DNA of 64,000 bases from Paenarthrobacter sp. JL.01a (lineage in GTDB: Bacteria; Actinomycetota; Actinomycetes; Actinomycetales; Micrococcaceae), in contig NZ_CP104877.1 in assembly GCF_025452095.1 (NCBI RefSeq), forward strand, positions 3,286,001 through 3,350,000, given 5' to 3'. A program made the position numbers and the translations under genes. The notes under the pieces were generated by a model that saw only the letters and a list, made by a program, of their open reading frames with translations, was not told the origin of the DNA and did no database searches. This document shows positions 9,191 through 26,261 of this stretch, piece by piece. Every line of letters starts with the position of its first letter. The stretch's first letter is position 1.

Positions 9191-9255
9191 GGAGTTTTTG
9201 TACAGCTAATGCCCTTAAGAAGGCTCCATAAGGGCATTTGCTGTACAAAAACTCC
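9191..9255. repeat. 65-bp intergenic palindrome, copy 1
   Basis: GGAGTTTTTGTACAGC at the left end is matched by its exact complement GCTGTACAAAAACTCC at the right end. The inner parts TGCCCTTA and TAAGGGCA also pair. The last base overlaps the stop codon of the upstream aldehyde dehydrogenase gene. A second copy of identical length and arms lies at 12311-12375. There is no T-run after the hairpin, so a classical terminator is less likely than a REP or MITE-like element. Confidence 0.95.
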
Positions 9256-10778
9256 TAGAAGAAGCCGAGCTTGTTCTCGTTGTAGCTGACCAGGAGGTTC
9301 TTGGTCTGCTGGTAGTGGTCCAGCATCATGGCGTGGTTTTCACGGCCAATGCCTGAGGACTTGTAGCCACCGAAGGCGGCACCTGCCGGGTAGGCGTGGT
9401 AGTTGTTGACCCACACGCGGCCGGCCTGGATTTCCCGGCCTGCGCGGTAGGCGACATTTCCGTTGCGCGACCAGACGCCGGCACCCAGTCCATAGAGGGT
9501 GTCGTTCGCGATGCCGATGGCGTCGTTGTAGTCGCTGAACTTGGTGACGGACACTACCGGGCCAAAGATCTCCTCCTGGAAGATCCGCATCCTGTTGTGT
9601 CCCTCGAAGATGGTGGGCTGGACGTAGTAGCCGCCAGCCAGGTCACCGGAGAGCTCGGCCCGGGCACCACCGGTAAGGACCTTGGCGCCCTCCTGCTTTC
9701 CGATGTCGATGTAGGACAGGATTTTCTCCAGTTGGTCGTTGGAGGCCTGTGCACCGATCTGTGTTTCCGTATCCAGCGGGTTGCCCTGGATGATCTTGTT
9801 GGTCCGGGCCACGACATCGGCCATGAAGGAGTCGTAGATGCCTTCCTGGACCAGAGCACGGGACGGGCAGGTGCAGACTTCGCCCTGGTTGAACGCGAAG
9901 AGGGTGAAGCCTTCCTGTGCTTTGTCGTAGAAGGCGTCGTTCTGGGCGGCGACGTCATCGAAGAAGATGTTCGGGCTCTTGCCGCCAAGCTCCAAGGTGA
10001 CGGGGATGAGGTTGTTGGAGGCGTACTGGCTGATCAACCGTCCCGTGGTGGTCTCGCCCGTGAAGGCGATCTTGCGGATGCGCGGGCTGGAAGCCAGCGG
10101 CTTGCCGGCCTCGACGCCGAATCCGTTGACCACGTTGACCACGCCGGCCGGCAGGAGATCACTGATCAGTTCCATGAGGACCAGGATGGACGTGGGCGTC
10201 TGCTCGGCAGGCTTGAGGACAACCGCGTTTCCGGCCGCGAGTGCCGGTGCCAGCTTCCAGACGGCCATGAGGATGGGGAAGTTCCACGGGATGATCTGGC
10301 CGACAACGCCCAGGGGCTCCTTGAAGTGATATGCGGTGGTGTCCTCGTCCAGTTGGGAGAGCCCACCTTCCTGGGCACGGACGGCCGAGGCGAAGTAGCG
10401 GAAGTGGTCTGCGGCCAGCGGGATGTCGGCGTTGAGGGTCTCGCGGACCGGCTTTCCGTTGTCCCAGGTCTCGGCGACGGCCAGGAGTTCAACGTTCTCG
10501 TCGATGCGGTCTGCGATCTTGTTCAGGATCGCGGCGCGTTCGGTCGCGGAGGTCTTTCCCCAGGACGGCGCCACCTTGTGGGCTGCGTCCAGTGCGAGCT
10601 CGATGTCCTCGGCCGTTCCCCGGGCAACTTCGCAGAATGCCTTGCCCGTCACCGGGGTGATGTTCTCAAAGTAGGCGCCCTTGACCGGGGCAACCCATTC
10701 GCCGCCGATCCAGTTCTCGTAACGGTCTTTGAAGGTGACCTTCGAACCCTCGGCACCCGGCTGTGCGTAAACGGTCAT
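9255..10778 (-). CDS. NAD-dependent aldehyde dehydrogenase (AcoD/AldB-like)
   Basis: This 507-aa enzyme oxidises aldehydes, probably acetaldehyde, to acids. The general base is E263 in LELGGKSPN and the nucleophile is C302 in [15 protein letters not shown] near 163-168 and FTGETTTG near 239-246 are cofactor loops. The double-Cys CTC and the C-terminal [18 protein letters not shown] are typical of the AcoD/ExaC group of about 506 aa. AAAGGAG precedes ATG. It leads an operon with the alcohol dehydrogenase and DUF779 genes, and its likely activator lies immediately upstream. Confidence 0.95.
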
Positions 10779-10842
10779 TGCTAGCTCCTTTGCTGCGAAT
10801 CACTGTGGCTCTCGCCATTGATCCGAGCCTAGGAGCCGGGAG

Positions 10843-10861
10843 GTTGCAGCTACGTTGCAAC
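10843..10861. promoter_or_regulatory. Inverted repeat upstream of the aldehyde dehydrogenase operon
   Basis: GTTGCA and TGCAAC form a perfect inverted repeat with a 7-bp spacer, 65-83 bp upstream of the aldehyde dehydrogenase start and directly after the regulator gene. A second small palindrome, GTGAGTCAGCTCAC (10864-10877), abuts it. The position suits an activator site for the GAF regulator; binding is inferred. Confidence 0.45.
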
Positions 10862-10874
10862 AGTGTGAGTCAGC

Positions 10875-12218
10875 TCACTCCTGCAGTTCCCTTTCGATGC
10901 GCTCCAGATCGGCAACCACTGCGGCGCGCTTGGGTGAGCGGGGCGGCAGCAGCTTCAGGACCGCAAGGCGGAGGTCGACGTCGTACTTCGCCTCGGGTAG
11001 CTCCGCGTACTTGAGCAGCGAATCGACGCTGCCGTCGCTGAGCAGCGCCTCCCGCAACAGAAGCGACACCCGCTCGCGCAACTGCACGACGCCGGGCGCC
11101 TCCGACCGCGGCAAAAGCGCACCTTTGTAGATTTCCAGGGCTATGCGGTGGGCGCCGCGCTGCAGGCAACTCAGGACCTGGCCGGAATCGGGAAGCAGCT
11201 CGACGGGCAGCCTGTACGGCCGCGACTCGGGCACAGCGTCAGGGCTGAGTTCCTGGATCACCTTGCGGAGGCGGACCATCTCGGCGCGGAGAGTCACGGA
11301 CGATCCCTCGCCGGGGTAAAGCTGGGCGCACAGATCATCTGCGCTCAATCCATCCGGATGGTTGCCGAGAATGGCCAGGATCTCGCTGTGGCGTGCTGAC
11401 AAGGAGACGGTCCGGCCATCGATGCTGAGCAGCGCCTGGTCACGCCCCAGAAGCTGGAGGCTGTTGCGGTACAAAGCCTGGCCGCCCGTGGCGGCTGCGC
11501 TCCGGCGTCGTGGTTTGTCGCGGACTGCCGCGGCGAGCTGTAAGCGTTCGATGCGCAACTGTGCCTGGGCGGCAGCGACCGTTGCTTCCACGAGCGAGAG
11601 CGTGTGCGGTGCGACGGCGGTTTCGGTCCCGGTGATGTCCACGACGCCCAATACTGCTCCGGAGTCGGGATCGTGGAAGGGAACCGCGGTGCAGCTCCAG
11701 GGATGGACGGACCGCTTGAAATGCTCGGCCCCGGAGATCTGGATGCTGCGGTCAAGGGCCAACGCCGTGCCCGGAGCGCTGGTGCCCACGGAGGCTTCGG
11801 ACCAGTCGGCGCCGGCGACGAACATCATGCCTTCGGCGCGGCGTTGCATGACGGGGTCGCCGTCCACCCACAAAAGCCGTCCGACGTCGTCGCCTACGGC
11901 CACCAGCAGGCCGCTGTCATGGCTCGGCTGGACCAGCAGCTTCTTGATCACGGGCATGATGGTGGCCAAAGGGTGCAGCCGCCTGTACTCCTCCAGCTCA
12001 TCGCGGTCCATGGCCAGGGGCGCTTCGGGTACGTCGGGGTTGGCCTTCAAGTAGGCCGAACGTTGCCACGATTCATGGACGAGGCGCCTGATTCCGGCGA
12101 TCTCATCGGCGCTTCCGGCGCGCCAGGCCTCCAAATGTTCGTGGCCGGCCAGGGCACGCTTCTGCAGCAGCTCCGCGGCGTCAATGCCTGGAGCGATCGG
12201 ATGGACTGGATTCCTCAT
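10875..12218 (-). CDS. GAF-domain transcriptional regulator, AcoR-like without AAA domain
   Basis: This 447-aa protein begins like AcoR-type activators (RRLVHESWQRSAYLKANPDVPEA near 46-68), followed by a GAF-like sensor at about 80-225 (GLLVAVGDDVGRLLWVDGD, SVGTSAPGTALAL). Instead of the sigma-54 AAA+ domain and Fis helix it carries a C-terminal region with SLSARHSEILAILGNHPDGLSADDLCAQLYPG (given as context near 270-300), which resembles a winged-helix module. GGGGAG precedes ATG. Actinobacteria lack sigma-54, so this architecture makes sense. Its place ahead of the aldehyde dehydrogenase operon indicates that it controls it. Confidence 0.85.
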   Translation of the reverse strand: MRNPVHPIAPGIDAAELLQKRALAGHEHLEAWRAGSADEIAGIRRLVHESWQRSAYLKANPDVPEAPLAMDRDELEEYRRLHPLATIMPVIKKLLVQPSHDSGLLVAVGDDVGRLLWVDGDPVMQRRAEGMMFVAGADWSEASVGTSAPGTALALDRSIQISGAEHFKRSVHPWSCTAVPFHDPDSGAVLGVVDITGTETAVAPHTLSLVEATVAAAQAQLRIERLQLAAAVRDKPRRRSAAATGGQALYRNSLQLLGRDQALLSIDGRTVSLSARHSEILAILGNHPDGLSADDLCAQLYPGEGSSVTLRAEMVRLRKVIQELSPDAVPESRPYRLPVELLPDSGQVLSCLQRGAHRIALEIYKGALLPRSEAPGVVQLRERVSLLLREALLSDGSVDSLLKYAELPEAKYDVDLRLAVLKLLPPRSPKRAAVVADLERIERELQE

Positions 12219-12310
12219 CGAACTCCCCTGGGTGCTGTGCGTTATGGCCTCGCGTGGTGGGCAACGCGTGTGGTGGGCAGCACAGTACCGACGAGTCTAG
12301 TTCGCCGGAT

Positions 12311-12375
12311 GGAGTTTTTGTACAGCCAATGACCCTAAAGCGCCCGAATAAGCGCATTAGCTGTACAAAAACTCC
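12311..12375. repeat. 65-bp intergenic palindrome, copy 2
   Basis: This has the same 16-bp arms as the element at 9191, GGAGTTTTTGTACAGC and GCTGTACAAAAACTCC, and the same total length. The centre differs and pairs less well. It sits five bases after the stop of the FprA-like gene, so both copies follow the 3' end of a minus-strand gene. Confidence 0.95.
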
Positions 12376-12380
12376 GGAGG

Positions 12381-13823
12381 TCAGGGGCGGGAGATGCGGA
12401 TCATTTCCTCGCGCGGGACAACCTTGATGCGCTCGCGGACCACGCCGTTCCCGTCTTCGGAGGCGGCGGAGGCTGCGGACCACTCAGCACCGAGGGCAGC
12501 TTCGTGCGCGTCCAGCCGGTTCCAGCCTTCCCACGTGGTGTATTCGATGCCGCGTTCTTCCAGGAGGTCGATGATGGCCTGCGGGTCCGGGTTTTCGGCC
12601 GGCGGCAGGTTCAAACGGTCCTCGAGGAGGCAGCCGATGGTTTCCAGCGCATCGCCCTTGGTGTGCCCGATCAACCCCACAGGTCCGCGCTTGATCCAGC
12701 CGGTGGCGTAGATTCCCGGTACTGGTTCCCCATCGGCACCCAGGACGCGGCCGCCGTCGTTCGGAATGACGCCGCGGCGGGCGTCGTACGGCAGCTCCTC
12801 CAGCGGCGAGCCGTGGTAGCCGATGGCCCGGTAGACCGACTGGACCGGGTATTCGAGGAACTCCCCGGTTCCCTTGACGTTGCCGGTGCCGTCCAGTTCC
12901 ATCCGCTCAAACTTCATCGCCGCAACCTTGCCCGGGGTCTCGGGTGAGTCGAGGATTTCCACCGGGCTGTGCAGGAAGTGCAGGTGCAGGCGGCGGGACG
13001 AGGGCTGCTCGGCTTCAGCATGCTCCTCCACCAGCCAGTTGGTCATGGTGTTGACCATGGTCTTGATCTGGTTGTTGGTCCGGATTGCCTCGTCCGAGGC
13101 CTCGTCGAATTCGAAATCCTCCGGGTACAGGACGATGTCCACGTCCTTGCAGTGCGAGAGTTCGCGCAGTTCCAAGGGCGTGAACTTGACCTGGGCAGGC
13201 CCGCGACGGCCGAAAACGTGGACGTCGGTCACGGGCGAGCTCTTCAACCCTTGGTACACGTTGTCCGGAATCTCTGTGACAAGCAGTTCCTCCGGGTGCT
13301 TGACCAGCATGCGCGCAACGTCCAAGGCGACGTTGCCATTGCCGATCACCGCGATTTCCTTGGCGTCCAGCGGCCAATCGCGCGGCACGTCCGGGTGTCC
13401 GTCGTACCAGGAGACAAAGTCCGCGCCGCCAAAGGAGCCTTCCAGCCCAATGCCGGGAATGTTCAGGTCCGCGTCCTTGATGGCTCCGGTGGAGAAGATC
13501 ACGGCGTCATAGAAGGCGCGGAAGTCGTGGAGGCTCAGGTCCCTGCCGTAGGTCACGTTGCCCAGGAAGCGTATGTCCCCGCGATCCAGCACCTTGTGCA
13601 AGGCGTTCACGATGCCCTTGATGCGGGGATGGTCCGGCGCTACACCGTATCGAATCAACCCGTAGGGCGCGGGGTACGCCTCAAAGAGGTCGATGCTCAC
13701 TTCCACGTGCCCGTCTTTGACTTCGTTGGACTTGGTGAGGATGTCCGCGGCATAGACACCGGCGGGACCCGCGCCCACAATGGCGACGCGAAGCGGACGA
13801 TTGGTTGCGGCTGAGTCTGACAC
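12381..13823 (-). CDS. fprA: Ferredoxin-NADP+ reductase, FprA type (first copy)
   Basis: This 480-aa flavoprotein transfers electrons between NADPH and ferredoxin. The FAD Rossmann motif VGAGPAGVYAADIL is at about 16-29, the adrenodoxin-reductase signature PYGLIRYGVAPDHP at about 53-66, and the NADPH motif GNGNVALDVARML at about 159-171. ATGWIKRGPVGLIGHTKGDA near 370-390 completes the family pattern. It starts at GTG with GAAGG about nine bases upstream. A close paralogue lies at 26265-27731 and shares most motifs. It stands alone here, next to no obvious partner, so its electron acceptor is open. Confidence 0.94.
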   Translation of the reverse strand: MSDSAATNRPLRVAIVGAGPAGVYAADILTKSNEVKDGHVEVSIDLFEAYPAPYGLIRYGVAPDHPRIKGIVNALHKVLDRGDIRFLGNVTYGRDLSLHDFRAFYDAVIFSTGAIKDADLNIPGIGLEGSFGGADFVSWYDGHPDVPRDWPLDAKEIAVIGNGNVALDVARMLVKHPEELLVTEIPDNVYQGLKSSPVTDVHVFGRRGPAQVKFTPLELRELSHCKDVDIVLYPEDFEFDEASDEAIRTNNQIKTMVNTMTNWLVEEHAEAEQPSSRRLHLHFLHSPVEILDSPETPGKVAAMKFERMELDGTGNVKGTGEFLEYPVQSVYRAIGYHGSPLEELPYDARRGVIPNDGGRVLGADGEPVPGIYATGWIKRGPVGLIGHTKGDALETIGCLLEDRLNLPPAENPDPQAIIDLLEERGIEYTTWEGWNRLDAHEAALGAEWSAASAASEDGNGVVRERIKVVPREEMIRISRP

Positions 13824-26198: not shown

Positions 26199-26261
26199 CA
26201 ACGCGGGGTCACTTAGGGCCCATCCGGAAGCTCCGAATGGGCCATAAGTGACCCCGCGTTG
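26199..26261. repeat. 63-bp intergenic palindrome (third family)
   Basis: CAACGCGGGGTCACTTA pairs over 17 bp with TAAGTGACCCCGCGTTG, and the inner GGCCCAT and CCGGA blocks pair with TCCGA and ATGGGCC. It lies four bases after the stop of the second FprA gene and just upstream of the metallo-hydrolase promoter. I see one copy in this window. Confidence 0.95.

Follow-up and report, generated by a model that had tools for sequence, protein, structure and literature searches.

What is a 65-bp palindrome that occurs twice within a few kilobases, with identical arms and each time directly behind a stop codon? The question is raised by a stretch of 64,000 nucleotides of the chromosome of Paenarthrobacter sp. 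JL.01a, hereafter the window (positions 3,286,001-3,350,000 of a single contig of 4,404,497 bp; this genome is denoted G000, and its relatives by similar numbers). The original prediction placed two such palindromes with identical 16-bp arms at 9191-9255 and 12311-12375, each 0-5 bp downstream of a minus-strand stop, and this was borne out. Copy 1 overlaps the last base of a stop codon with its right edge (9255), copy 2 lies 5 bp from a stop at 12381, and both are located between tandem minus-strand genes. A search of the window with the arm 16-mer GGAGTTTTTGTACAGC, allowing up to 3 mismatches, returned four matches, all of them perfect, against 0.15 expected from shuffles. Our best reading, to which we give an even chance, is that the element is a lineage-specific repeat resembling a REPIN, a doublet of repetitive extragenic palindromes (REPs) that forms a hairpin, as defined by Bertels and Rainey 2011 (PMC3116915). 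It would have spread by a route other than a REP-associated tyrosine transposase (RAYT) and would be kept as a 3′ boundary by a putative DNA-binding factor.

The palindromes belong to a dispersed family. Searching the complete genome with the arms, as had been proposed with the original prediction, gave 67 matches with at most 2 mismatches, which resolved into 36 copies after three single-arm matches judged to be chance (944560, 1562534, and 1789559) had been dropped. These copies are distributed round the chromosome, beside genes of many families. A covariance model built from them yielded 80 two-strand matches, or about 40 copies, placing the size of the family in G000 at about 36-40; in the model searches, copies were taken as half of the two-strand matches and at most 86 candidates per genome were scored, so copy numbers may be low. 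Hence, the two window copies neither stand alone nor reflect a recent duplication of the locus. That one locus was duplicated locally, or that these are chance palindromes, is suggested only by the closeness of the two window copies, and we regard it as practically out of the question given that copies occur genome-wide and that both window sites are filled in relatives too. One chromosome quarter of G000 (1.64-2.78 Mb, an interval picked post hoc) holds 1 of the 36 copies, against 9.3 expected.

Outside G000, exact TGTACA arms were found in 75 stretches when one genome per GTDB species was searched, and every title named Arthrobacter or Paenarthrobacter. In a family-wide sample, exact arms matched 12 of 345 genomes, all 12 within its 35 Arthrobacter and Paenarthrobacter members, and no exact-arm element was found in the 310 genomes that represent 31 other genera. 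Within the genus, exact TGTNCA arms matched 16 of 61 genomes; these range figures rest on exact-arm patterns, which miss worn copies, and a laxer covariance model gave at least one match in 44 of the 61. In the assembly of P. aurescens TC1, 19 copies with GTTTTTGTACA arms were found. In IMG/VR, one contig (L128, 844-907) carries 64 bp with similar outer arms and ACACGTGT repeats inside, which is probably unrelated and due to chance or convergence.

In these Arthrobacter-type soil bacteria, copies of the family are located at gene ends. In G000, 17 of the 36 lie between convergent genes, 19 between tandem genes, and none between divergent genes. Across several species, 79 copies were convergent, 101 tandem, and 7 divergent among the 187 with both neighbors called within 600 bp (21 of 208 were left out), a count that pools copies of related species, which are not independent. 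Gene ends were taken from a home-made caller, and the gene-pair background (36 tandem, 7 divergent, and 7 convergent) from one 64-kb window. Tandem copies were closer to the upstream stop than to the next start in 89 of 101 cases, with median distances of 8 bp versus 69 bp, and 72 of 101 were within 15 bp of that stop. Among convergent copies, 73 of 79 were within 15 bp of a stop, and in many convergent pairs the element almost fills the space between both stops. Tabulated in this way, as had been suggested, most copies are found no more than 15 bp from a stop codon. This bears on the possibility that we are dealing with a purely selfish REPIN-like element or miniature inverted-repeat transposable element (MITE), moved by an unrecognized transposase, tolerated only beside stops, and with arms kept for that transposase. 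A filter for harmless insertion fails to explain why copies are positioned at the stop and not near the next start.

The length of the element is fixed. It was exactly 65 bp in 203 of 208 copies, the other five measuring 64-67 bp. When gaps of 25-55 were allowed, a single spacing was observed in all 27 copies found in G000, and with gaps of 30-45 one spacing accounted for 35 of 35 copies in G057 and 36 of 37 in G059. The latter two genomes harbor 35 and 37 copies, respectively, with TGTCCA/TGGACA arms and inner motifs that differ from those of G000. The arm consensus is GGAGTTTTTGT(A/C)CA. Alignment columns 6, 7, 10-14, and 21 hold an identical pair in all 36 own copies; the pairs 16/50, 20/46, and 25/41 are variable, with both sides frequently changed, and over the whole structure the own copies have 39 double-changed cells versus 20.4 in shuffles. 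Arm conservation is biased at the named loci, which were selected by exact TGTACA arms, and in G057 and G059, selected by exact TGTNCA; the arm states given for TC1, ISL-65, and AFG20 are those of the selected loci and not of the whole genomes. Hybrid arms were observed twice in ISL-65 and twice in G039.

Column pair 12/54 is uniform per genome: A-T in 34 of 34 own copies, and C-G in 35 of 35 copies of G057 and 36 of 36 of G059. This is so although gene ends bearing the element are shared between these genomes, which we count in favor of an element kept by a DNA-binding factor. Of 34 gene ends in G000, 6 recur in G059, 5 of these on both sides, and 5 recur in G057, 2 of them on both sides; of 35 in G057, 13 recur in G059, 9 of them on both sides. 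A lenient cut of 45% protein identity was applied, and among the six G000-G059 cases there is a weak one, at 52% and on one side. Rough arithmetic gives fewer than one gene end shared between clades by chance.

The original prediction held that the arms are conserved while the centers drift. This is part of the picture, and the centers do differ, but not simply so: the inner halves of own-genome copies follow a half-site consensus, and in the own clade the two halves of a copy are more alike at columns 15-20 than are halves taken from different copies. Similarity between the two halves of a copy beyond the consensus reached a z of about 6 at these columns in clade A, 2.0-2.7 in G020, G059, and G057, and -0.3 in ISL-65 and AFG20 together. 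At columns 21-32, coupling was weak in G000 (z 2.5) and ranged from 1.3 to -2.1 in the other groups. Since these columns are uncoupled outside G000 yet the length is unchanged, a full stem does not account for the fixed length, and a full-length stem as the constrained object is unsupported. In clade B (G059, G020, ISL-65, AFG20, and G002), two types of inner half-site occur, unlike halves occur together in 18 of 26 classified convergent copies, and their polarity relative to transcription was 12 versus 7. The flanks of the element in G000 are skewed, with 43% C on the left and 41% G on the right within 30 bp, and do not pair. Nested insertion into the loops of older hairpins, which this flank composition had suggested, was discarded, as flank complementarity was not above that of mismatched pairs (P 0.91 for own copies and 0.27 for others).

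Orthologous sites were compared across relatives. For 22 of the 36 own copies, the site is shared with a copy at a named locus, in one case perhaps only via a neighbor 428 bp away. For each window site, the 29 best of 60 relatives searched were compared. At the site of copy 1, G039, G048, and G023 have the element, G060 and G033 a worn version, and G008 a collapsed one, and G034 lacks it; more distant species have other hairpins there or nothing. At the site of copy 2, the element is present in G008 and G039, present with one worn arm in G048 and G023, and shortened in G034, and G033 and G060 lack it cleanly; at this gene end, the TGTCCA form is carried by G057, G059, and G021, and a worn form by G038. 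Eleven further sites were compared in up to seven relatives (a twelfth, 3715214, was not aligned). At 3864801, G000 has an intact element, G023, G008, and G033 have a slightly worn one, and G060 has a shortened one; G039 and G048 have 20-30 nt instead, and in G034 the convergent stops are 4 nt apart with no element. Clean empty sites, which the original prediction had proposed to look for, thus exist. At 3052751, G000 has the element and G008 and G023 one with worn arms; in G048, G034, and G060, the two stops are separated by a few bases. Same-length worn relics were found at 505409 in G039 and G034, and a deletion in G023, G060, and G033. Site 1011554 is filled in G000 and G039 and occupied by a different, GC-rich hairpin in G023 and G060. 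In L315, a simple scan for terminator-like sites gave nothing, so that the hairpin there is described as no more than GC-rich. Finally, at 1548685 the present element (family 1) occurs in G000, G023, and G048, and G060 and G008 have a palindrome with CGCGGGGTCACTT arms instead; G034 and G033 keep remnants and G039 has nothing, indicating that different families can hold the same gene end.

Conservation at shared sites was estimated from 25 filled orthologous pairs picked by eye, two relics included. Identity was 89% in the arms (579/650), 85% in the inner half-sites (595/700), and 75% in the center (169/225), compared with 76% (760/1000) and 817/1000 (82%) in the left and right 40-bp flanks, which are partly coding. 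Arms better conserved than flanks argue against a purely selfish element. Exact arms were kept in 3 of about 50 copies in G008, G033, G034, and G060, and in 62 of about 128 in G000, G023, G039, and G048, two groups chosen after seeing the data; the pattern fits a lineage-specific loss of the putative factor, or of the need for it, in the former.

Two near-identical copies, 621714 and 634543 (L358, 1515 and 14344), bound a 12.8-kb cluster for fructan use that contains GH32, inulin-fructotransferase-type, sugar ABC transport, LacI, and PfkB genes. In G023, G033, and G060 a single copy joins the outer flanks of this segment, as if the two copies had recombined. Integrase-driven integration of the segment was dismissed, as there is no integrase among its nine called genes.

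A mobilizing enzyme was sought. The Y1 transposase model (RAYT, PF01797) had no match in G000, nor in 60 of the 61 genomes of the genus, other transposase classes not having been searched; it matched in 5 of 14 control genomes, E. coli included. The only genome of the genus with a match, G032, has about one weak copy of the element, and none of the element-rich genomes has one, so the suggestion of a RAYT fails. No parent element with the same ends was found in G000, where no arm with up to 2 mismatches lies outside 65-bp pairs save the three chance matches, and no target-site duplication was noticed at the aligned empty sites, whose flanks are diverged. These three negative results count against a purely selfish element as well. 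Such an element would explain why dispersed copies share family-wide arms, why relatives have clean empty sites, such as the 4 nt in G034, and why there are several palindrome families in the genus; terminal inverted repeats of the MITE type are present in the 65-bp elements, and their layout is that of REPINs as described in PMC3116915. On balance, we consider it rather unlikely. The original label of a REP/MITE-like or protein-recognized 3′ element therefore survives in part, as a dispersed 3′-end family of fixed length with clean empty sites; the RAYT does not survive, and recognition by a protein stays putative.

A different possibility is that selection acts on RNA, the element being a hairpin of the 3′ untranslated region that terminates transcription with no U-tract, blocks 3′ exonucleases, or is targeted by RNase III. 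The window copies have stable predicted folds (-43.9 and -36.8 kcal/mol, z -11.0 and -6.2), copy 1 forming one long hairpin. Over orthologous pairs, 35 double changes were counted versus 14.1 expected, 24 of the 35 being Watson-Crick, with related species counted repeatedly; L240 (G059) and L111 (ISL-65) differ at one shared site by TGTCCA to TGTACA and by AACG to ATCG, each on both sides. The pairing of own copies above shuffles and the GC-rich hairpin of two relatives at 1011554 agree with such a role, too. Selection on an RNA stem, however, should favor G-U over A-C mismatches in the transcript sense, and the tandem copies had 21 G-U and 22 A-C in 19 own copies and 65 of each in 47 others. 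This parity weakens an RNA role, and with it the idea that an RNA stem is under constraint, without being decisive, since mismatches that are neutral in so long a stem could give the same result. Moreover, columns 4-14 are nearly invariant in own copies, which a mere stem would not need, and the length is constant despite the uncoupled columns 21-32. No U-tract directly follows the stem: on either strand, the 3′ side of the element reads ...CAAAAACTCC, and the T run is not at the end expected of an intrinsic terminator. Rfam gave 0 matches above gathering score in the window, and at the elements only sub-threshold matches of the microRNA type. We deem an RNA-level hairpin distinctly unlikely.

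The mismatch parity, the poor coupling of the halves, and the fixed length together point to recognition as DNA, through two inverted half-sites. Each half-site, of about 28 bp, would comprise an outer GGAGTTTTTGTNCA and an inner submotif that, judging from the alignment, appears to lie about one helical turn inward, and a fixed distance between the two would give the 65-bp element. A putative DNA-binding protein or complex would read both half-sites, in double-stranded DNA, in a cruciform, or in single strands. Once bound or folded, the element may form a boundary, equivalent for both strands, at which transcription is ended or insulated behind genes. We infer this role from the placement of the copies, from the hairpins that substitute at the same place, and from arm conservation.

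Several observations weigh against a repeat kept as a boundary by a DNA-binding factor. The paired changes fit a folded strand too, and inner motifs common to the copies within a genome, as in G057 versus G059, would also result from recent copying. The right flank is conserved almost like the inner half-sites, 7 of 187 copies were called divergent, and a GC-rich hairpin also adjoins copies 634543 and 901555. Individual sites can do without the element, since many 3′ ends of relatives lack it. Furthermore, no candidate protein was found: in a Pfam survey of 65 of the 67 proteins flanking own copies, no transposase and no recurrent DNA-binding family was among the 25 listed of 131 matched families.

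How does the element compare with known systems? In E. coli, REPs and bacterial interspersed mosaic elements (BIMEs) are extragenic palindromes located in 3′ untranslated regions and in convergent or tandem gaps, some no farther than about 15 nt from the stop; a RAYT is present and the REPs are clustered. The 65-bp element likewise occupies 3′ regions between convergent or tandem genes, but as single units and not in clusters. As with intrinsic or U-tract-less terminators, a hairpin lies just past the stop and other hairpins substitute for it in some relatives; unlike those, the element keeps one arm sequence and one length over about 200 copies, with no U-tract and no sense-strand bias. Integron attC sites are also palindromes that follow stop codons. 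With REPINs, whose description gives two conserved 16-mers at fixed spacing and compensatory changes (PMC3116915), the element shares two inverted conserved 16-mers at fixed spacing. It differs from that description in that element-rich genomes lack a Y1/RAYT match, in that copies sit at stop codons whereas REPINs are random in extragenic space, and in that many sites are common to several species and the arms were not recognized as REP. Because RAYT and random extragenic spread both fail, we do not file the element as a REPIN; it may be REPIN-like in form and terminator-like in working. The GTAG/CGTC REPs, according to PMC3733652, measure 20-40 bp per unit and bear a tetranucleotide tag at one of their ends, and their CGTC class is without a dedicated transposase. 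The element resembles them as a short palindromic extragenic repeat, and the CGTC class in that no transposase of its own was found, but it is 65 bp long and symmetric, with untagged ends. Its consensus ends are GGAG...CTCC, and the GTAG/CGTC end tag occurs in 0 of 36 own copies bar two GTAG starts within the paired arm (3940819 and 4231636). The main text of PMC3733652 makes no mention of Arthrobacter or Actinobacteria. Searches by topic and by the arms of families 1, 2, and 4 found no published description of the element among the titles and abstract openings of the matches listed.

Table 1. The palindromes of the window and the genes beside them (window coordinates).
Feature	Position	Strand	Basis or remark
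Copy 1 of the 65-bp palindrome	9191..9255	strandless	Sequence, arm search, covariance-model match
Copy 1, left arm GGAGTTTTTGTACAGC	9191..9206	+	16-mer search
Copy 1, right arm	9240..9255	-	16-mer search
Aldehyde dehydrogenase gene, PF00171	9255..10778	-	Stop touches copy 1; orthologous 3′ ends compared
Zinc alcohol dehydrogenase gene, PF08240 and PF00107	8137..9159	-	Downstream of copy 1
Copy 2 of the 65-bp palindrome	12311..12375	strandless	Sequence, arm search
Copy 2, left arm	12311..12326	+	16-mer search
Copy 2, right arm	12360..12375	-	16-mer search
Pyridine-nucleotide oxidoreductase gene, PF07992	12381..13823	-	Ends 5 bp from copy 2; orthologous 3′ ends compared
GAF-domain gene, PF01590	10875..12218	-	Downstream of copy 2
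Other-family palindrome, CAACGCGGGGTCACTT (CGCGGGGTCACTT) arms, 63 bp	26199..26261	strandless	3 bp from minus-strand stop

The oxidoreductase is presumably FprA-like, and we take the GAF-domain product to be a regulator. The listed open reading frame of the zinc alcohol dehydrogenase starts within copy 1; from a Shine-Dalgarno-like GGAGATC, the start given in Table 1 seems the probable one.

Further palindromes in the genus are built on other arms. The CGCGGGGTCACTT arms of the third window palindrome recur at 65 bp in L054 (5705-5769), as well as in L308 (G060) and L310 (G008) at the family-1 site mentioned above. Palindromes with AACTGNGTAGCA arms (L281-L297) number 17 copies in 13 of the 61 genomes, and have a core of 60 bp in 16 of 17; for 14 of 17, a called stop is no more than 20 bp away. 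GCGCGAACGTACACT arms occur in L151, L181, and L182. The common plan of the families suggests a putative superfamily. The window contains 12 inverted repeats with exact arms of at least 12, of which 10 are within 20 bp of a called stop, and G000 seems to end many genes with long hairpins. A broader proposal would be a genus-wide, protein-dependent gene-end system, in which exchangeable palindromic boundaries of fixed length, with several arm families and one architecture, sit beside stop codons and are recognized by a DNA-binding factor that evolves fast, ending or insulating convergent and tandem transcription without a U-tract or Rho site. We advance it tentatively, as a possibility on the doubtful side.

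If mobile, the element would be REPIN-like and without a RAYT, moved by another enzyme. If its arms are protein sites, bacteria would have a sequence-specific mark of gene ends, naturally replicated dozens of times. Together with the empty sites in close relatives and the lineages in which it is wearing out, this would let the protein and the effect on read-through be sought directly. Such tests are within reach, as TC1, a named strain, carries copies. The element may thus mark or close gene ends in these bacteria.

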